The translations under genes and the position numbers were made by a program. Below the pieces are notes generated by a model. That model made no database searches. It saw only the letters and a program-made list of their open reading frames with translations, and was not told the DNA's origin. Shown here piece by piece: positions 3,727-12,531 of a stretch of DNA of 64,000 nucleotides. Source of the DNA: Thermoanaerobaculia bacterium (GTDB taxonomy: Bacteria > Acidobacteriota > Thermoanaerobaculia > Multivoradales > J023); contig JALCBJ010000025.1 in assembly GCA_028066595.1 (NCBI GenBank), positions 1 to 64,000 on the forward strand, given 5' to 3'. How positions within the stretch are numbered: the first letter of the stretch is position 1; each line of letters begins with the position of its first letter.

Positions 3727-4326
3727 ATGCGACGTGAGCGGGCTGAAGACAGACGAACTCAGCGAGGTATGTCGGTGGTCGAAGTGCTCGTGGCCGCCTC
3801 GCTCCTTTTGACTGTCGCAGTAGGAATCCTTGCTTTGCTGACCCGCTCGCTGCAGAACAACACCCGTGGTTGGGAGGCTACTCAGACGTCGAACCATGCC
3901 CGGACTGCTCTCGATCAGCGCCTCGGCGAGGCGCTTACCGCGCCCGGGTTGGAAATCGCCGCTGGATCGAATGAAAGAAAAAACGAGCTCTTCTGGTCCG
4001 GAGGCTCGAACGTTCTCGACAACGACGACGAGGAAGGTTGGTACGACTCGGAGTCGGAGGCGGCGGGAACCGTTTTCGTCCGGAGAACCGAGATCGTCAG
4101 GCAGTACAACGTCCGGTCGCTATTGGGCGAGAGCAGCGGGCTGAACGATGAGGGTGAGTATGTCTTCGAGCTCGAGCGAGAGCGCATCGACACCCCTCTG
4201 TCCGGTGACGTGGAGCCGAGATTCGTCCACATCAAGCGCATCGAGGTGACGATCGAGGGTCGTAGACAGGGTGGAGCTCTGGGGGCTGGGCAGCGGTTGA
4301 AGTCCGAAACCTACAAGTCCTTCTGA
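3727..4326 (+). CDS. Type IV pilus minor pilin, PilV-like
   Basis: A 199-residue prepilin. The leader MRRERAEDRRTQRG is followed by the class III cleavage context G|MSVVEVLVAASLL, with Glu at mature position 5 and a hydrophobic N-terminal helix of about 20 residues. The remaining soluble part is acidic and has no strongly recognisable fold. AGGAGA lies seven bases before the start. It is the first gene of a tight set of five, and its neighbours (PilW-, PilX- and PilY1-like) make a PilV role likely. It should be processed by the prepilin peptidase PilD and prime pilus assembly with the other minor pilins. Confidence 0.85.
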   Translation: MRRERAEDRRTQRGMSVVEVLVAASLLLTVAVGILALLTRSLQNNTRGWEATQTSNHARTALDQRLGEALTAPGLEIAAGSNERKNELFWSGGSNVLDNDDEEGWYDSESEAAGTVFVRRTEIVRQYNVRSLLGESSGLNDEGEYVFELERERIDTPLSGDVEPRFVHIKRIEVTIEGRRQGGALGAGQRLKSETYKSF

Positions 4327-4329
4327 TCG

Positions 4330-5616
4330 ATGGACGCGCTCCCGTTGGATCCTCGCAATCGCTGCCGCCATCTCGCCCTCGGACGGGTCAGTCGGGGCTA
4401 CTCCCTGATCGAGCTCCTCGTCGCTCTGGCGATGATGGTGGTCGTGCTGATCGCAGCGCTCGTGCTGCTCGACACGACGAACCGTGCGACTCGGACACAG
4501 GTCTCCAGGGCAGACGTCCAGCACTCGCTACGCCTCGCGCAGGGCGAGATTGCCGGCAAGGTCCGGATGGCCGGCCGAGGCGGTTTGCTCGCCGCGACCA
4601 CGTCTCGACCCTGGCCGGATGGAGTCGCCTTGGAGGTCGACAACAACGTCGAGGACGACCGTACTCTCTTTCCCTCGGATCTGAATAGCCCGAAGATCAA
4701 GGAAGGAACCGACGTCCTCGTAGTACGCGGTTCCTTTGACCTCCCGCTCTACTATCTGAACCCTCTCGATTCGAGCCGATTTCAGTTCGACCCGGCGCGG
4801 GGTGTCGGCTCGGTGATCGTTCCTCGCAGAACACCGAATGGGGGCTTCGTCCAGGACCTCGAGCTCTTGGCCGAGCTGCGGTCCGACGCCCGTGAGGCCG
4901 AGGCGATTGTGGTCGTGAGCCCGTTCGACGACGACGTTTACGGTGTGGCGCTGATCGATTGGTCTGCTTCGAGGTTCGACCCGGGGAGTGACACGTTTCG
5001 TCTCGGCTTCACGTTCGAAGACGATCCAGCGGCGATCGATCCGCGAAATCCCGACAACGTCCTGCATGCGGCGTCGGCCCTATCGAGCGGCGGCGCGTTT
5101 CCTCGGGAGCTGTTCCGAGCAGGATTCAAGACGCTTGGCATTCTCGAGGAACACCGTTACTTCGTCCGCGATCCATCAGACGAGTCCGGCGCAAGCTTGG
5201 GAAGTCAGCCGAAGCTCAGCGTCGTCCGAACGCTCCTCAACCGAGACGAATACTGGCACGAGAACCCTGCAAGGCCGTACTCGGAGCCTTGGGAAGACGT
5301 CGTCGACGGAATCTCCGACCTCCAGATCGCGCTCGGTTTTGCCGATCCGGAGAGCGGCGAGGTGACGGAGACCACAGACGGCGCCGATGACCTTTGGTTC
5401 TTGAATCATCCCGCCGAATCGGTTCCCGAGGGAGATCTGACTTTGGTGCGAATCACGACATTGGCTCGATCTGCTGCTCCTGATCGCAACAGCGAGGCGA
5501 AGGTACTCCTGCGGCTCGAAGACCGAAGCTACACGGATGAGGACATCAACTCTCCCGTCGAGCGCAAGTACCGGCGGTTCTTCCTGCCTACGGTCGTCAG
5601 CCTTCGCAACCTCTGA
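4330..5616 (+). CDS. Type IV pilus minor pilin, PilW-like
   Basis: A 428-residue prepilin starting three bases after the preceding stop. The basic leader of 23 residues ends in the cleavage context G|YSLIELLVALAMM, with Glu at mature position 5, followed by a hydrophobic helix to about residue 45. The large C-terminal part is long for a pilin, which is typical of PilW proteins, and is rich in Asp and Arg. It probably sits in the pilus priming complex together with the PilV-, PilX- and PilY1-like products encoded beside it. Assignment as PilW rests on size, position and the N-terminal motif, not on a detailed match. Confidence 0.85.
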   Translation: MDALPLDPRNRCRHLALGRVSRGYSLIELLVALAMMVVVLIAALVLLDTTNRATRTQVSRADVQHSLRLAQGEIAGKVRMAGRGGLLAATTSRPWPDGVALEVDNNVEDDRTLFPSDLNSPKIKEGTDVLVVRGSFDLPLYYLNPLDSSRFQFDPARGVGSVIVPRRTPNGGFVQDLELLAELRSDAREAEAIVVVSPFDDDVYGVALIDWSASRFDPGSDTFRLGFTFEDDPAAIDPRNPDNVLHAASALSSGGAFPRELFRAGFKTLGILEEHRYFVRDPSDESGASLGSQPKLSVVRTLLNRDEYWHENPARPYSEPWEDVVDGISDLQIALGFADPESGEVTETTDGADDLWFLNHPAESVPEGDLTLVRITTLARSAAPDRNSEAKVLLRLEDRSYTDEDINSPVERKYRRFFLPTVVSLRNL

Positions 5617-5628
5617 TCGGAGAGTCCT

Positions 5629-6234
5629 ATGCCGAAGAAGCCCCCACAGCCTGGCCGGAACCTGAAGTCTCCTGGTTCCGGATTTCCTCCGACGGAGCGT
5701 CGGTACCATCGGGGCAACGCGTATCTGGTCACCGTGATGGTGATGATCATCGTGATGCTCTTGGGTCTGTCGCTCGGAACCGTCACCCAGACCGAGATGC
5801 TGATCGGCTCCAGAGAGAGGAACCATCAGCGCATGTTCTACCTGGCCGAAGGAGGGCTTCATCTGGCGGTCGCTCGCCTGCTGGTGAGCGCAGATCCGAG
5901 AGCGGCGCGCCTGGAGTGGGTACTACCGCCAGCCTATGACTTCACCTCGGAGGGTGGTTCTCGAGGTCTTTCGCTTCGCGGCGTGGTACGGCTGGCACCC
6001 GTCAAATCACCGTCCGCCTTGCCATGTCAATTGTGTAGCCAAGGCGCTCTCGAATATCAGACCGACTGGCAGACGGTTCGTCTGCCGGTCACGGTACGGG
6101 GCGAGATGGAGAGCGAGGGCGGTCGGTCCTTGGCGCGACGGCGAGTCAGCTCGTTGCTCGACGTCATGCCATGGAGCGGCGAGCTGTCGGTCACCGGACC
6201 CGACCTACGCGACGCCGACATCGAGTTCAACTGA
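5629..6234 (+). CDS. Type IV pilus assembly protein, PilX-like
   Basis: A 201-residue protein with a basic N-terminus, one membrane helix (residues about 32-52, AYLVTVMVMIIVMLLGLSLG) and the PilX N-terminal-domain phrase GSRERNHQRMFYLAEGGLHL, in which a conserved FYLAE-type segment follows the helix. A classical G|xxxxE cleavage motif is absent, as in many PilX/GspK-like proteins. GGAGAG precedes the ATG. It lies 12 bases after the PilW-like gene and ends exactly where the PilY1-like frame begins, so translation is probably coupled. Two cysteines (PCQLCSQ, residues about 130) could form a disulfide. Confidence 0.85.
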   Translation: MPKKPPQPGRNLKSPGSGFPPTERRYHRGNAYLVTVMVMIIVMLLGLSLGTVTQTEMLIGSRERNHQRMFYLAEGGLHLAVARLLVSADPRAARLEWVLPPAYDFTSEGGSRGLSLRGVVRLAPVKSPSALPCQLCSQGALEYQTDWQTVRLPVTVRGEMESEGGRSLARRRVSSLLDVMPWSGELSVTGPDLRDADIEFN

Positions 6235-9200
6235 GTGGCGTCGCTGGCCGAATCTCTCCTAGGTCCGATGAGCCGATTCCATCGTTCTTCTGTCGTTCGC
6301 TTTCCTCTGCTGCCGGTTCCGATATCCGGGTGGGTAGCCGTCGCCTGCTTTGTCTGCATTCTGGGGTCGTGGGTGCTGGGGTCGTCTGTAGCGAGGGCTG
6401 ACGATACCGAGTTACTGCGCGCGAACAGCAGCAACCCGTTTCTGTTCATCTTGTTGGACAATTCGCGATCCATGGCGGCATCTCTCGACGACCGCTGGGT
6501 TCATGCCGGTGCGGATGATCCGCGGTCACGCCTGTACATCGCCAAAGAGATCCTCTACGAAGAGCTCGGCAGCTTGAGCACCGTGCGTTACGGCCTCGCG
6601 ACCCTCGACCAGGACGAGGTTCGGGTCGTGTCCAAGCACTATCTCTATTTCGTCGCCGACACGCCCGCCAATGTCGAAGCCATGGCCGGAATCCCCGGAG
6701 CCCTGAATGGTTACCCGGCGCTCGAGCCCGGGAACCAGATCGAGTCGCTGCAGACCGACGATGCGACCGGCTCTGATGGGAGGGTGGTCGAAATCGATGG
6801 GGATCTCCTGACTCTCGGACGGACGTTTCCGTTTGATGGCTCGGGCCGGCAGACGCCTTCTGGAGGCACGTGCATCGATCCACTCGATCTGGCGACGGAA
6901 CGTGAAGCGATCAATCGCTATCCGAAATTCGGTGAGGCTGGCCGCGACACCGTCACGATGTGGATCGAGGGGAACACCGGTGTCGTCTTTCGTCTCCGCT
7001 GGCAGCGACCCTCAGGCGCTGCCTGGCGTTTGGGTGATGACCACATCGAGGTGCGGCTTCAGGTTGCGGAGGTCGGCGGCTGTAGTCCCGAGGCGATCGG
7101 TCCCGAGTTGGACCTCGAGCTCGAGCTTCGGCTGTGGAAGCCGTTCCTCTGGGTCGACGACGCCCACGGTGCCAGTTTCACCGCTGCTGGTGATGACGGA
7201 CGCTGCGGCGGAGTGAATGCCATCGAGAAGGCCGGCGGTTTCTGGAGTCTCGCTCCTCTGGACGTCGATAGCGCGGGGAGGTGTTCGAACAAGCCGTTTT
7301 CTGGCCAGGGTTGGGAAGGCAACTACGACACCGGGCAACCCTTCACGACCAACCCAGGTTACGAACGTTCTCTGTCCTCGGGTCTCGGGAGCTTCGACAG
7401 CTACTGCGACAGCGCGTCCTCGAATGCAACCGGGTGTGTGAATCTCAAGCACCCCACAACCTATTCGACGGATCCGGACGTACGAGAGGCCGACGTCGGC
7501 GACCTGGTGCCGTTCCACTGGGGCTCGACTCACCACGCGACCCTGTTGTCGCGTCTCAATCCGAATCACGGGATCGGAGCCGATGATTTCGGCGTTGCGC
7601 GCTACTTTGGCGATACCTTGCGGGAAGGGGCCGGATCTCTCGGGTTGGTCTCGAGCTCCAGAAGGCCTATTCTGGCGGCTGGAAACAGCCCGATCGGGGC
7701 TGCAGTAAGGGATTTTCGCTGCTGGTTCGTGGGCGAGGAGTCCGACGAGTGTCGCCGGAACGGTTCGTTTCAGGTGTCGTACGGTCGCGGCCTTCTTCCG
7801 CTTCTGCGGGAGCGCGACTCTGGTCTATGGACCTGTCGCCGTCCGTTCCTGATCGTGATAACCGATCTCTACGGGAACTGTACCCAGGATGACGACGTGG
7901 CCCGCGTCGCCGGTATGTTCCGAGAGACCGGCGAGTCGGGACTGCAGAACGGTGTCAGCACCTGGTTGCTCAACATGGGTCAGAGTCGTTGCGGTGGTCT
8001 GTCCAATGCCGGGACGGGCAGGGTCATCGATATCGAAAGCAGATCGGAGTTTCGCCATGTTCTGCGCCAGATCCTGGGTGAGGTCGAAGAGACGTCTCGA
8101 ACGTTCGCTGCAGCCGCCGTACCGGCAGCGCAAGCCGACGTAAAGGACAAGATCTACTTTTCCCGGTTCACGCCCCTGCACGACAAGGGTGTTTGGCCGG
8201 GTGAGCTACTGGCGTTCAGGAAACCGGTACCGACCCGGGAGATCCCAGGCCTGGACGGCGCGACCCACTCGGTGCCGGACGAGGATCGGAGCGTTTGGGA
8301 CGCGGGACGCGAGATGTTGGTGCAGTCGCCGGATCCCGGCTCGCTGGCAGGGCCTTACTCCACCCGCTCCGATCTGAGAATCGGTGCCGGTAGCACCGAA
8401 AGGCGGGTCTACTACATGGTCGAGCCTCGACTCTGGAACTACTTTGCGCCGGTTTCCGGAAGTCTCACAACGCTCGACCGCAGTGAAACCTACTCAGAGA
8501 ACGACTTACGCAACGACATGTGGGAGGCCATGGGGCTCGTCGATCGTGGACCTCTAACGGGGGAGACTCTGCACGACATCCAGTCGAGCAATGCCCTCGA
8601 CGGATACTTGAGATCGGCACACTCGACGCTCCGGTACTCCTTGGTCGAGAAGCGGGCTCTGGACAGCGCGGGACGGACTCTGCGCAACTTCGTCCTCGGC
8701 GACATGTTCCACTCCTCACCTCGGTTGATGGGGAGTCCGTCCAACTCGCGCTACCTGGCCGATCCCGAGAGCTTTCCCGGATACGAGGAGTTCTCGGCGC
8801 GCCATGAGAAGCGACGGAGAATGCTATTCGTCGGCGCCAACGATGGAATGTTGCACGCCTTCGATGCGGGTCGATGGCAAGGGAGTCTGAGCGAGGGTGA
8901 GTTCGACGATGGCAGCGGTCGAGAGATCTTCGGCTACGTGCCCCGCGAAGCGGTCCGGGGTCTCCGGGCCTTGAGCGAGAACCGAGAAGATCACCGTTGG
9001 TTCGTGGACGGAACGCCGCAGATCGCCGACGTTTGGATCGATGTCTCCGGAGATGGAGCGAGGGAGTGGCGTACCATCCTTTTCGGTGGCATGCGACGGG
9101 GCGGCAGAACCGTCTTCGCACTCGACGTCACCCAGCCCGATCCGGTGCGGGAAGTGACCCGCGATCTGGGCGGTACGACGGTGACGATGGGCTACCTACC

Positions 9201-10659
9201 GACGCGGAACGAGATCGTCCCGTCGTGTTGGGATGATCACGTGGCCCTCGAGTCGGGCGTTCGAATACCGAACGACGGCGATTGCGACGCTCTTCCGTTC
9301 GGTACCCCGCTCTGGGAGATCACTGATTCCAGCGACGACGACGAGAGCGGCAAGGCCGATATGGGCGAGAGCTGGTCTTCGGTCGAGGTCGGTCCGATCC
9401 GCATCCGCAACCGACTCGGGGATAGCGATCGCGAGGAACTCCGTTGGGTCGCCATCTTCGGCGGGGGATTCGATCCCGACGGGGCGACGGACCATGGTCA
9501 GGGCAACTGGCTCTACATGGCGGACATCGAGAGTGGCGAGATCATCTACAAGCGCCGACTAGGAGCCGAAGGGTCGGTAGCCGCCCCTCCGAAGGCACTC
9601 GACACCGACCTCGATGGGGTCCTCGATCGTGTCTACGTCGCTACGACCCACGGGCAGCTGTGGCGCCTCGACATGAGCACTGTGCCTCGCCTGGTAGACG
9701 TAGATAGGAAGTGCCCCAAGGCTGCCTACGAAGGCGTGTGTATCGACGAAGATCACACCTCATGGGATCCGGTTCTCTTCTTCGACAGCTTGACCCAGGA
9801 ATCCGATGACCAAGGCAACCCGGTTGCGCAAAGGCGTCCCTTTTTCTTCGCACCGACGGCGTTCTACGTCGGTCAATTGGGTGGGTTCGGCATCGCTGTG
9901 GGTACCGGCAACCGGGATGACCTTTGGGCTTCGGGACCGCGTGGCGGCAATCGGTTCTACGTTTTCGCCGACGAGGTCTGTAGCAGCTCCACGGGCGACA
10001 CGAGTCGCTGCCTTCCAACGTCGGACCTACCGCTATACGAGAGTGACCTGGTGGACGTCACGGGCGGCGGTGCCGCGTGCGGCAACGAGGTGGTGACGGA
10101 CATCGATCAGCGGGAGACGGGAAAACGGGGGTGGTACCTTCGGCTCGGTCAGGTACCTGTAACCGCTTCGGGTGGCGAGGGTTCAGCGGACACTATCTTC
10201 GATGCTGCCGACGAGCGGGTGGTGAGCCCGGCCCTGACTCTCTCCGGTTTGACAGTCTTCAATACCTACGTTCCCGAGACCATGCGAACCCAGGCCTCTG
10301 ATGGTCCGCGCTGTACCCGCCGCGGGATGGGTCGCAGCTATCTTCTCTATACGGCCAGCGGCTGCGCTCTCGATATCCAGGAGTCCGACACTCTGGTCGG
10401 CGATGTATTCGTGGATCGAAACGTGACGGGTGAAAATGATCCGACGCAAGACACTGGCGCCGATGGGGAATCGGCGGCGGATCCTTGCATTGGAAACGAG
10501 GCGTTGCATCAGGAGATTCGGGACACCCTCTTTCCCAGTACATGCCGTTTCTCTGAGCTCCTCCGCTACCCCCTATTGGTCAATCGAAGCGACACTGGGG
10601 TAAAGTGCCTGGTAGAGATGCCGTTGTGCATCCAGCAGAAGAACTGGAAGGAGTTCTGA
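6235..10659 (+). CDS. PilY1-like pilus tip adhesin/assembly protein with VWA-like motif
   Basis: A 1474-residue secreted protein. The frame can start with GTG at 6235, directly after the PilX-like stop, or with ATG at 6268; both keep a long signal peptide ending near VARA (residue about 55). Soon after comes a metal-ion-dependent-adhesion-type motif DNSRSM (residues 75-80), as in the VWA domain of PilY1. The C-terminal half is the PilY1 beta-propeller: MLFVGANDGMLHAFDAG from residue about 863 and a calcium-loop DTDLDGVLD at 1123-1131 followed by the blade phrase VYVATTHGQLWRLDM. PilY1 proteins sit at the pilus tip, bind calcium and control extension, retraction and surface adhesion. Larger than Pseudomonas PilY1 (about 1160). 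Confidence 0.92.
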   Translation: MASLAESLLGPMSRFHRSSVVRFPLLPVPISGWVAVACFVCILGSWVLGSSVARADDTELLRANSSNPFLFILLDNSRSMAASLDDRWVHAGADDPRSRLYIAKEILYEELGSLSTVRYGLATLDQDEVRVVSKHYLYFVADTPANVEAMAGIPGALNGYPALEPGNQIESLQTDDATGSDGRVVEIDGDLLTLGRTFPFDGSGRQTPSGGTCIDPLDLATEREAINRYPKFGEAGRDTVTMWIEGNTGVVFRLRWQRPSGAAWRLGDDHIEVRLQVAEVGGCSPEAIGPELDLELELRLWKPFLWVDDAHGASFTAAGDDGRCGGVNAIEKAGGFWSLAPLDVDSAGRCSNKPFSGQGWEGNYDTGQPFTTNPGYERSLSSGLGSFDSYCDSASSNATGCVNLKHPTTYSTDPDVREADVGDLVPFHWGSTHHATLLSRLNPNHGIGADDFGVARYFGDTLREGAGSLGLVSSSRRPILAAGNSPIGAAVRDFRCWFVGEESDECRRNGSFQVSYGRGLLPLLRERDSGLWTCRRPFLIVITDLYGNCTQDDDVARVAGMFRETGESGLQNGVSTWLLNMGQSRCGGLSNAGTGRVIDIESRSEFRHVLRQILGEVEETSRTFAAAAVPAAQADVKDKIYFSRFTPLHDKGVWPGELLAFRKPVPTREIPGLDGATHSVPDEDRSVWDAGREMLVQSPDPGSLAGPYSTRSDLRIGAGSTERRVYYMVEPRLWNYFAPVSGSLTTLDRSETYSENDLRNDMWEAMGLVDRGPLTGETLHDIQSSNALDGYLRSAHSTLRYSLVEKRALDSAGRTLRNFVLGDMFHSSPRLMGSPSNSRYLADPESFPGYEEFSARHEKRRRMLFVGANDGMLHAFDAGRWQGSLSEGEFDDGSGREIFGYVPREAVRGLRALSENREDHRWFVDGTPQIADVWIDVSGDGAREWRTILFGGMRRGGRTVFALDVTQPDPVREVTRDLGGTTVTMGYLPTRNEIVPSCWDDHVALESGVRIPNDGDCDALPFGTPLWEITDSSDDDESGKADMGESWSSVEVGPIRIRNRLGDSDREELRWVAIFGGGFDPDGATDHGQGNWLYMADIESGEIIYKRRLGAEGSVAAPPKALDTDLDGVLDRVYVATTHGQLWRLDMSTVPRLVDVDRKCPKAAYEGVCIDEDHTSWDPVLFFDSLTQESDDQGNPVAQRRPFFFAPTAFYVGQLGGFGIAVGTGNRDDLWASGPRGGNRFYVFADEVCSSSTGDTSRCLPTSDLPLYESDLVDVTGGGAACGNEVVTDIDQRETGKRGWYLRLGQVPVTASGGEGSADTIFDAADERVVSPALTLSGLTVFNTYVPETMRTQASDGPRCTRRGMGRSYLLYTASGCALDIQESDTLVGDVFVDRNVTGENDPTQDTGADGESAADPCIGNEALHQEIRDTLFPSTCRFSELLRYPLLVNRSDTGVKCLVEMPLCIQQKNWKEF

Positions 10660-10660
10660 T

Positions 10661-11353
10661 TTGACCCCATCCGGACCGAACCGTACGCCGAGTATCCGTC
10701 TTGTATTGATCCTGTTTGTAGCTCTCCTGTCGCTGCCGGCGACGGCCGATTGGCTGGTGATGGAAGATGGCTCGCGGCTGGAAACCCGTGGCCCGTGGTC
10801 CGTTGACGGACGGCGAGTGATTTTCACGCAGGCCAACGGTACTTTGTCCGCACTGCGTACACGCGAAGTCGATCTGACGGCGAGTGAGGCGTTGACCGAG
10901 GCACGGGAGCGGGCTGCGGAAGCTGCGAGAGCCGAACCGCCCGCCGAGGCCCGACCCGAGCCGCGCTGGGTGTTCACGAACCGAGACATCCCGACGGCTT
11001 CCCCGGTGGTGCAAGAAGAGCTAGAGATCGAGCCTCTGGTAGGAGCCGAGGGCTTCACCTTACGTAGCGTGGAAGAGAGGGTCGACGCGACTGGCAACAA
11101 CTTGGTGGTGCGAGGGGTTCTGATCAACGATGCTGACATCGCCGCCTCTCTGGTCGCCGTCCGGGTGTCGATCCTTTCTCCGGTCGACGGCGGCACCCTC
11201 GATGTTGTGCAGGCGATCGTCTCGCACCCGGATCTCTTGCCCAACTCGGCGACCCGCTTCACTGCCAGCTTCGATGACCTGTCGCCGGGGTTCGGCCTCG
11301 TCCAGGTCGAGGTGGAAGTGTTGGACGGGTCGAACCGTTCCAGAGTCGGCTAG
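10661..11353 (+). CDS. Secreted FxLYD-like protein ending the pilus operon
   Basis: A 230-residue protein starting with TTG at 10661, chosen because GGAAGGAG lies seven bases upstream inside the end of the PilY1-like gene. It has a signal peptide (LVLILFVALLSLPATA) and then a short segment, WLVMEDGSRLETRGPW, that looks like the small DUF-type sheet domain found after many acidobacterial signal peptides. An Ala/Glu-rich linker (residues about 72-108) follows. The C-terminal 110 residues (NNLVVRGVLINDADIAASLV and following) read like an FxLYD beta-sandwich. It probably acts in the periplasm or at the cell surface together with the pilus tip protein. No enzymatic motif is seen. Confidence 0.75.
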   Translation: MTPSGPNRTPSIRLVLILFVALLSLPATADWLVMEDGSRLETRGPWSVDGRRVIFTQANGTLSALRTREVDLTASEALTEARERAAEAARAEPPAEARPEPRWVFTNRDIPTASPVVQEELEIEPLVGAEGFTLRSVEERVDATGNNLVVRGVLINDADIAASLVAVRVSILSPVDGGTLDVVQAIVSHPDLLPNSATRFTASFDDLSPGFGLVQVEVEVLDGSNRSRVG

Positions 11354-11496: not shown

Positions 11497-12531
11497 TCAG
11501 CGCGCCAGGTGGTCGAATCCGGTGGCAGGTAGGGCCCGCAGCCGTCCGCATCGGTTCAACTCGACGATGCCGGTGGTCACCCGGCCGATCTCCCGGCAGC
11601 CACCAGAGCCCGGGCCGGGCGCCTCCACGCCGGGCGCCTCCACGCCGGGCGCCTCCATGCCGGGCGCCTCCACGTCCGCGGGCAGTGCGAAGAGGAGCAC
11701 GTAGTCTTCACCACCTCCAAGGGCAGCCTCGAGCGGGTCGGCGTCGAGAAACTCGGCCAGAGCTCGGTCGTCTTCCGGTAGCGAGATGGCTTCCGCCTCG
11801 ATCACCGCACCGACGCCGCTCTCGGCGCAGAGTCGGTGAAGATCCTTGGCCAGCCCGTCCGATACGTCGAGGCCGGCGGAGCGAGGGAGACGCACGAGAT
11901 CGACACCGAGGCCGAGCTGTTCCTTGACGTGCTTCAGCGGCTCCACGTGGCAGCGGACGGCGCGTTCCGCAGCGGCGAGCAACTCCGGCGGCAGGTGGCG
12001 CGGCAAGCTGAGGACACCGGAGTCATCGAGGCGGGCACCCAGCTGGCCCAGCAGGAACCCCAGATGGGAACGTCCCACCGGCCCCCCGAGCCAGAGTCTG
12101 TCTCCCGGACGTGCGTTCGATCGGGGCATGAAGCGTTCTGCACCGTCGGCGCGCCTGCCGAGAAGAGTCAGGGTCGCGGTATACCGATCACCTCTGGACA
12201 CATCTCCGCCGGAGAGCGTCAGGCCCACGGCGATCGCGTCGTAGAGAAACCCCTCGAAGAACCGCCGGTGGTCGAAGTCCGGAGGCGCGGCCAGGGTGAG
12301 AAACGCATGGGCAGGTTGCGCGCCCACCGCCGCGAGATCGGATAGGTTTACCGCCAGCAGCCGCCTCGCCAAGACTTCCTCGTCGAGACCTTCGGGAATG
12401 TGAATGCCCTCGGTCTGTGTGTCCACGGTTACGGCCCACGGTTCGCCAAGATCGAGGAAGGCACAGTCGTCCACCAGCGCACTGGTACCCGGCCGGCTGT
12501 TGAGCCAGCTGATCAGACGTTCTTCGGTCAT
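11497..12531 (-). CDS. thiL: Thiamine-monophosphate kinase ThiL
   Basis: A 344-residue ThiL: it phosphorylates thiamine monophosphate to the diphosphate cofactor with ATP. The family landmarks are present in order: VDDCAFLD (the GDDCAV-type Mg site, with Val for Gly), TQTEGIHI, AVNLSDLAAVGAQP, LSGGDVSRGD, and a C-terminal DVSDGLAKDLHRLC and GGGEDYVLLFALP. Between the last motif and the C-terminus sits a repetitive insertion of GMEAP/GVEAP units encoded by a 15-bp minisatellite. It lies about 100 bases downstream of lon on the same strand. The N-terminus is slightly short, starting directly at MTEERLISWL. Function is judged secure despite the repeat. Confidence 0.93.
   Translation of the reverse strand: MTEERLISWLNSRPGTSALVDDCAFLDLGEPWAVTVDTQTEGIHIPEGLDEEVLARRLLAVNLSDLAAVGAQPAHAFLTLAAPPDFDHRRFFEGFLYDAIAVGLTLSGGDVSRGDRYTATLTLLGRRADGAERFMPRSNARPGDRLWLGGPVGRSHLGFLLGQLGARLDDSGVLSLPRHLPPELLAAAERAVRCHVEPLKHVKEQLGLGVDLVRLPRSAGLDVSDGLAKDLHRLCAESGVGAVIEAEAISLPEDDRALAEFLDADPLEAALGGGEDYVLLFALPADVEAPGMEAPGVEAPGVEAPGPGSGGCREIGRVTTGIVELNRCGRLRALPATGFDHLAR
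11616..11674. repeat. 15-bp in-frame tandem repeat inside thiL
   Basis: About 3.9 copies of the unit CGGGCGCCTCCACGC at 11616-11630, 11631-11645, 11646-11660 and 11661-11674, with one substitution in copy three (CATGC). Read on the minus strand it encodes the pentapeptide GVEAP/GMEAP. Because the unit is a multiple of three, copy-number change would not break the frame. Confidence 0.9.

Follow-up and report, generated by a model that had tools for sequence, protein, structure and literature searches.

PilY1 serves type IVa pili both as adhesin and as primer. Here we describe a gene, termed g5, that closes a five-gene minor-pilin/PilY1 operon in a 64,000-nucleotide stretch of DNA (hereafter the window) from a Thermoanaerobaculia bacterium (GCA_028066595.1, contig JALCBJ010000025.1). 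We propose, at about even confidence, that the g5 product is an exported accessory protein dedicated to the PilY1/minor-pilin tip complex of a type IVa pilus. A role in the type IV pilus as such is likely, because the gene keeps company with fimU, pilVWX, pilY1 and pilSR, carries a predicted export signal and appears to be coupled to pilY1. The operon is real and well conserved, and its accessory gene is apparently undescribed. A chance origin of the arrangement is very unlikely because most of the related genomes examined repeat the gene order.

The linkage was counted from PilY1 as well as from g5. The PilY1 profile PF05567 (E-value up to 0.01) matched 54 of 59 genomes and no genome of a control set of 14; with the threshold relaxed to E 1, one control, Haloferax volcanii, gave a match, below the cut-off. 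We examined 64 PilY1 places, consisting of 61 collapsed by hand outside the genome of the window, one in genome G005 that was found via g5, and two in the genome of the window. Two of these run off their contigs, leaving 62 complete places, 48 outside genus g7 and 14 inside it. The g5 gene lies directly downstream of PilY1 in 40 of the 48 complete places outside g7 (37 of 41 genomes), or in 39 of 47 places and 36 of 40 genomes without G005. Families f1, f3, f5, f6, f7, f8 and f9 all contain the directly adjoining pair. The eight exceptions outside g7 belong to G001, G002 (second PilY1), G007, G015, G038, G043 (two extra PilY1 genes) and G050 (one extra), and four of the 41 genomes have no g5 directly behind any pilY1. 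G007 and G015, in which PilY1 is not directly followed by g5, belong to family f2. In G002, two PilY1 genes flank a single g5, and in G043 a further g5-like gene separates pilW from pilX (loci L123 and L164). Distance trees of g5 and PilY1 from the 40 linked pairs gave a correlation of 0.55, with 0.24 as the largest value of 1000 permutations; this is a weak test that includes shared species history. The window copy is placed differently in the two trees.

A g5-like match (E up to 0.001) was present in 45 of the 59 genomes, the genome of the window included. The 14 genomes with no match are the 14 genomes of genus g7 in family f4. The best matches gave 29 loci from 29 other genomes (L013–L041), and PilY1 C-terminal coding sequence was found beside g5 in 27 of them. 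In L027 (G001), g5 sits in the pilus cluster further upstream; in L039 (G004), g5 is cut by the contig end and no PilY1 match was detected in the 1.5 kb upstream, and another G004 copy is linked. For secondary matches in other genomes, the neighbours were read for a minority, and the linkage counts that start from g5 refer to best matches. A search of named genomes returned 16 g5 loci, all from metagenome-assembled genomes, with g5 directly behind PilY1 in 13 (not in L080, L086 and L087). Their titles name Thermoanaerobaculia (6), Acidobacteria/Acidobacteriota (8), Holophagales (1) and “uncultured bacterium” (1). These loci are not independent, as 15 repeat records already counted and L087 shares its g5 start with G038. 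In a draw from the whole phylum, the g5 profile matched 94 of 297 genomes to some extent, in many cases through a single domain. Among 11 two-domain places from other families of the class that were read with their flanks (L184–L194), PilY1 adjoins g5 or lies one gene off in six (L185, L189, L190, L192, L193 and L194), and L187 and L188 have a PilR-like neighbour of g5. Pfam confirmed PilY1 in the four f13 loci scanned; a gene in L187 that looks PilY1-like had no Pfam match. The possibility that g5 is a scattered gene unlinked to pilY1, which the preliminary description had named as the outcome that would speak against it, was thus dropped on the counts from both genes, though unlinked copies exist.

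The preliminary description had also noted that the fifth gene starts with TTG close behind GGAAGGAG within the PilY1 coding end, and had taken this to suggest tight translational coupling. The arrangement was found as described: PilY1 ends with AAC TGG AAG GAG TTC TGA (10642–10659), and 7 bases lead from GGAAGGAG (10646–10653) to the TTG at 10661. The window’s own GGAAGGAG is not evidence for coupling, because a W-K-E peptide and ordinary codon usage yield it anyway, and the support for coupling comes from the relatives. A possible g5 start codon lies −4 to +4 bases from the PilY1 stop in 35 of the 40 linked pairs, and a TGATG overlap was counted in 13 of the 40 linked contexts. Where g5 starts at once, arginine in the last five PilY1 codons is encoded by AGG or AGA in 11 of 14 cases outside g7; where g5 is further away or absent, this holds for 1 of 7 (Fisher one-sided p 0.009, an optimistic value as the sequences are related). 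The background share of AGG/AGA among arginine codons in these genes is 269 of 3648 (7%). Two of the 14 arginines (L127 and L045) stand outside the W-R position. The mean pairing with the anti-Shine-Dalgarno sequence was −8.15 kcal/mol in the 35 tight pairs, compared with −5.87 kcal/mol expected from codon usage. The corresponding observed and expected values were −5.64 and −4.04 kcal/mol for five distant pairs, −5.6 and −6.48 kcal/mol for eight tails outside g7 that lack g5, and −6.43 and −5.93 kcal/mol for 14 g7 tails. A pairing equalled by no more than 10% of random synonymous tails was found in 13 of 35 tight, 1 of 5 distant, 0 of 8 g5-less and 2 of 14 g7 tails.

Tails of the form N-W-[KR]-[ED]-x also persist in PilY1 genes that have no g5 behind them, namely those of G007 and G015 and the additional ones of G043 and G050; the peptide is therefore conserved independently of g5. 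For Myxococcus and Neisseria, PilX and PilY1 are predicted to interact by strand addition in the available part of one report (PMC13190605), and by analogy such an addition with PilX might be one reason for the conservation. On top of this, the codon choice indicates a DNA-level signal by which the conserved PilY1 tail doubles as the putative ribosome site of g5. The tail reads FREGG in place of NWKEF in L045, a second pilus cluster of the same genome, and genus g7 has PilY1 tails such as VDWFENGMF.

The predicted g5 protein has an N-terminus that reads by eye as a classical signal peptide ending ATA-D, which points to export through this signal. The translation contains no cysteine, hence no lipobox, and Pfam gave no prepilin match; the possibility of a lipoprotein was dropped for lack of a cysteine. 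Relatives within the order align over the g5 length with 24–35% identity. The alignment consists, in order, of the signal peptide, a block of approximately 45 residues (consensus WLV..DG...ET.G.W...GR.V.F....GTLS.LR..EVDL..S), an LT..D motif, a variable linker and a C-terminal domain. The label “FxLYD-like” given in the preliminary description fits the family and not the window protein: NCBIfam NF038353 (FxLYD) matches the C-terminal half of 29 of 30 aligned members (E up to 0.1; best 1.6e-11), and the sole member without a match is the window protein, which matched no Pfam or NCBIfam family at E up to 1. All 29 relatives match. Pfam DUF3426 touches the C-terminal half of 12 of the 30 members (E up to 0.1). 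What the g5 family shares with FxLYD and DUF3426 is thus its C-terminal half, whereas the N-terminal domain and the linkage to pilus genes are particular to g5; neither family name indicates a function. Searches with g5 gave no match against PHROGs, none against a plasmid collection (tblastn), and a best E of 0.28 in a profile search of the PDB.

The following sequence of events is proposed for g5 as an accessory protein of PilY1. Ribosomes finishing PilY1 would restart at once on g5, and the partner would be made beside the adhesin. After export to the periplasm through its signal peptide, g5 would bind PilY1, or PilY1 together with PilX, and may assist PilY1 in folding, in binding calcium or in remaining stable up to its incorporation into the priming complex. 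This role is likened to the one proposed for TfcP with PilY1.1 of Myxococcus. In the portions of the reports available, TfcP is described as an exported accessory protein of M. xanthus cluster 1 that is coupled to its neighbour and needed for PilY1.1 stability at low calcium (PMC13190605, PMC8833165), and it was reported absent from sheared, purified pili in which PilY1 was present (PMC8833165). As far as these portions go, the two genes are alike as translationally coupled, exported accessories within a minor-pilin/PilY1 cluster. However, TfcP is a cytochrome c with CxxCH encoded upstream of pilY1.1, whereas g5 has no cysteine and a different build, and lies downstream of pilY1. The best reading would make g5 analogous to TfcP in role and not in family.

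Several observations weigh against this proposal. In genus g7, all 14 genomes have PilY1 and none has g5 behind it or any g5 match; as a rule, then, PilY1 can do without g5. Conservation behind pilY1 in relatives, which the preliminary description proposed to check, holds for the 40 of 48 places in seven families and fails in g7, and three places outside the class (L195–L197) are not linked. Within the class, no pilus gene was found near g5 in L184, L186 and L191 (3 of 11). In G001, g5 stands within the pilY1 cluster but between its fimU and pilV, away from the pilY1 end; in G038 it lies between fimU and pilR, with pilW, pilX and pilY1 elsewhere; and in G007 it is on a 5,657-base contig with no pilus gene match. 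The client of g5 need not be PilY1, given these three placements, and the tie of the gene is to the type IV pilus cluster as a whole more than to pilY1 itself. The window tail, which has lysine, is no better than chance, as 67% of random synonymous tails pair as well. The model of the PilY1 C-terminal part was too poor for use (mean predicted local distance difference test score, pLDDT, 56). The EF-hand-like motif of PilY1 is present in 35 of 40 proteins with g5 and 21 of 22 without; a calcium link through this motif was therefore dropped, and nothing ties g5 to calcium. In the 30 members overall, Asp and Glu make up 24% of the linker and 28% of the C-terminal tail (median 29.5 residues), and the window tail, unlike those of most relatives, has 9 residues with one acidic. 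A role of the acidic tails as a calcium buffer was likewise dropped, because the tail of the window copy is short and hardly acidic.

The family is also multi-copy. With an E threshold of 0.001, g5 matches six places in the genome of the window (the window and contigs C140, C145, C35, C148 and C153), of which the C140 copy is PilY1-linked. The C145 copy (L042, around 7653) is a two-domain paralogue with no pilus gene matched in 15 kb. These copies bear on the possibility that g5 is a passenger held in place by the operon structure, with a general role in the envelope and an N-terminal domain that is a common module in these genomes. In agreement with this, the proteins on C35, C148 and C153 share the N-terminal part and occur at unlinked places, and many of the genomes that have g5 have more than one match. 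A passenger is nevertheless most improbable in our estimation, since the two-domain form lies directly behind pilY1 in seven families, and two of the four genomes that depart from this have g5 next to fimU. At the unlinked loci L004, L003 and L006 of the same genome, the N-terminal domain is joined to other C-terminal parts; in L004 the sequence after it contains a CSVC motif and resembles glutaredoxin by eye.

An AlphaFold2 model of g5 (mean pLDDT 79.5, predicted template modelling score, pTM, 0.44; 16 sequences) contains five short strands at residues 29–66, a helix at 72–91 and a six-stranded sandwich at 132–219. The strands 29–66 are read as a small barrel in the model, and the relative placing of the domains is unsure because of the pTM of 0.44. 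Foldseek returned no match with E ≤0.001. In VIA-align, the immunoglobulin (Ig)-like domain aligned first with Ig domains of glycoside hydrolases (8q2h, Z 10.0, root mean square deviation (rmsd) 2.3, 88 aligned residues), and the archaellum stator FlaG/FlaF came somewhat behind (5tug_A, Z 8.5, rmsd 2.5, 85 aligned residues). These likenesses point to a common fold and not to a function. An Ig-like sandwich is a common adhesive fold, and the fold, together with the signal peptide read by eye, the missing lipobox and the position and coupling behind pilY1, would also suit a structural part of the tip that is co-assembled with PilY1 and the minor pilins, leaves the cell and, with its two domains, adds adhesion or reinforces the tip. 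We consider such a tip part rather unlikely, since g5 has no prepilin match or other known route into the filament, and in G038 it adjoins fimU and not pilY1.

The FlaG/FlaF alignment raises another possibility, as the archaellum is itself a type IV filament machine: g5 may be a periplasmic scaffold of the pilus machine that links it to the cell wall or aligns it, a job like that of the stator FlaF/FlaG. Two domains and a flexible linker would be a plausible build for an adaptor, judging from the model, and the retention of g5 in the pilus cluster, not always by pilY1, is in line with it. But glycoside-hydrolase Ig domains score as high or higher, so that the likeness may reflect the common fold only, and no membrane anchor beyond the signal peptide is evident by eye; a scaffold is quite unlikely. 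The placements of g5 beside fimU with PilY1 elsewhere somewhat favour the tip part, the scaffold and a third possibility, which concerns PilS and PilR.

The clusters were mapped with tblastn for pilD, pilS, fimU, pilV, pilW, pilX and pilR and with profiles for PilY1 and g5; the names pilR and pilS are used here for genes similar to an NtrC-type regulator and to a kinase, respectively. Typically the genes run pilD-pilS-fimU-pilV-pilW-pilX-pilY1-g5 with a facing pilR, and matches to pilS, fimU, pilW, pilX, pilY1, g5 and pilR occur all together in 17 linked loci. In 25 loci (24 linked loci and L183), the first pilus gene to follow g5 is pilR-like, convergent and within 3 kb; among the remaining g5 matches, eight have too little contig and 12, including the window, have another or no pilus gene next. 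This neighbourhood, the position between fimU and pilR in G038, and the PAS-domain histidine kinase (Pfam) that separates PilY1 from g5 in the f13 locus L190 could mean that g5 partners the PilS/PilR two-component system, for example as a periplasmic reporter of the state of a minor pilin or PilY1. Such a partnership is very unlikely: the window operon and several others carry g5 with no adjoining pilR match, and the coupling is to pilY1, whereas pilR is on the other strand. The second cluster in the genome of the window, L045, has the order fimU-pilV-pilW-pilX-pilY1-g5 (G000 C140:12000–21212). The 14 loci of genus g7 (L132 and others) are reduced to pilD, pilW and pilY1; searches for pilX and g5 gave no match there.

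Returning to g5 as an accessory protein of the tip complex, a broader proposal may be tentatively added, for which we have clear doubts. The gene may found an undescribed class of pilus tip assembly factors that is widespread in the order, and the same 15 bases may serve twice, as the code for a PilY1 tail that could attach to PilX through strand addition and as the ribosome site of the factor, thereby locking the dosage of adhesin and factor. PilY1 maturation and its hand-over to the minor pilins are largely open questions, and TfcP is a precedent for a dedicated helper encoded in such a cluster. Another helper-like gene, unrelated to TfcP and retained behind pilY1 in most sampled families of the order would suggest a repeated origin of helpers. 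The gene, identified by name only from metagenome-assembled records, offers a specific candidate for such a helper, and the codon evidence provides a testable case of one DNA stretch serving both a protein tail and the ribosome site of the next gene.

The minor pilin/PilY1 operon of Pseudomonas has the order fimU-pilVWXY1-pilY2-pilE. The window operon resembles this operon and clusters 1–3 of Myxococcus xanthus in having minor pilins followed by a PilY1 with a beta-propeller domain and an EF-hand-like loop, and relatives of the window operon resemble type IVa minor pilin/PilY1 operons in the pilSR-like genes nearby. It differs from the Pseudomonas and Myxococcus operons in that it is closed by g5 and that no fimU, pilD or adjacent pilS/pilR was matched. 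PilY2 of P. aeruginosa is, like g5, a small gene directly behind pilY1. TfcP and MXAN_1370 are named as additional genes in the available part of a survey of PilY1 clusters in myxobacteria, and the string “Acidobacteri” is absent from it by term search (PMC13190605). MXAN_1370 of M. xanthus cluster 3 is described there as a non-pilin gene with a T2SS-T3SS_pil_N domain; it is like g5 an extra gene in a minor-pilin/PilY1 cluster, but that domain is not among the families matched by g5 members. Within the titles and abstract openings retrieved from one open-access library and the accessible parts of PMC8833165, PMC13190605 and PMC7541494, g5 is not named. No paper on FxLYD was found in that library.

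The features of the window operon are shown in Table 1. As stated in the preliminary description, the five genes are spaced by 12 bases or less; the gaps are 3, 12, 0 and 1 bases, and all genes are on the + strand. Of the pilin-type features it listed, those of PilW (28.5 bits, cut-off 26), PilX_N (28.5, cut-off 25.5) and T4P_PilY1 (79.9, cut-off 28.1) exceed their Pfam cut-offs. Gene 1 remains below for N_methyl (18 bits, cut-off 21.2) and TIGR02523 PilV (23.1 bits, cut-off 52.2), and its label “PilV” is given from weak profile matches and operon position; it has a tblastn match in L045 (E 2e-26). The PilY1-like protein matched the solved P. aeruginosa PilY1 domain 3hx6 (phmmer E 1.2e-22), and no VWA domain was matched by Pfam despite the DNSRS motif.

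Table 1 Features of the pilus operon in the window.
Feature	Position	Strand	Remarks
pilV-like minor pilin	3727..4326	+	ATG start; prepilin-like motif RGMSVVEVL; weak profile matches
pilW minor pilin	4330..5616	+	ATG start; PilW PF16074 and N_methyl PF07963 above cut-off
pilX minor pilin	5629..6234	+	ATG start; PilX_N PF14341 above cut-off
pilY1-like tip adhesin	6235..10659	+	GTG start; 1474 aa; PF05567 above cut-off
Metal-ion-dependent adhesion site (MIDAS)-like DNSRS motif near PilY1 N-terminus	6457..6471	+	Pattern D.S.S, residue 75
EF-hand-like loop DTDLDGVLD in PilY1	9601..9627	+	Pattern Dx[DN]x[DN]GxxD, residue 1123
PilY1 C-terminal pentapeptide NWKEF	10642..10656	+	Similar in many relatives
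GGAAGGAG, proposed g5 ribosome-binding site inside PilY1 coding end	10646..10653	+	
g5, predicted exported protein	10661..11353	+	TTG start; 230 aa; signal peptide by eye; N-domain, linker, FxLYD/Ig-like domain

No FimU-like gene was matched by tblastn (E up to 1e-6) in the 64-kb window, and L045 has one; tblastn also gave no pilD match in the window and no pilS or pilR adjoining the operon. In a quick tree, the window PilY1 is on a long branch, apart from the PilY1 proteins of its own family’s genomes and near some of family f3. Given this position and the missing fimU, pilD and adjacent pilS/pilR, the window pilus operon is possibly an acquired or old duplicate cluster. Downstream of the operon, a convergent gene (11497–12531) resembles thiamine-monophosphate kinase by eye and contains an in-frame repeat, VEAPGMEAPGVEAPGVEAPG, at about 11610–11680.

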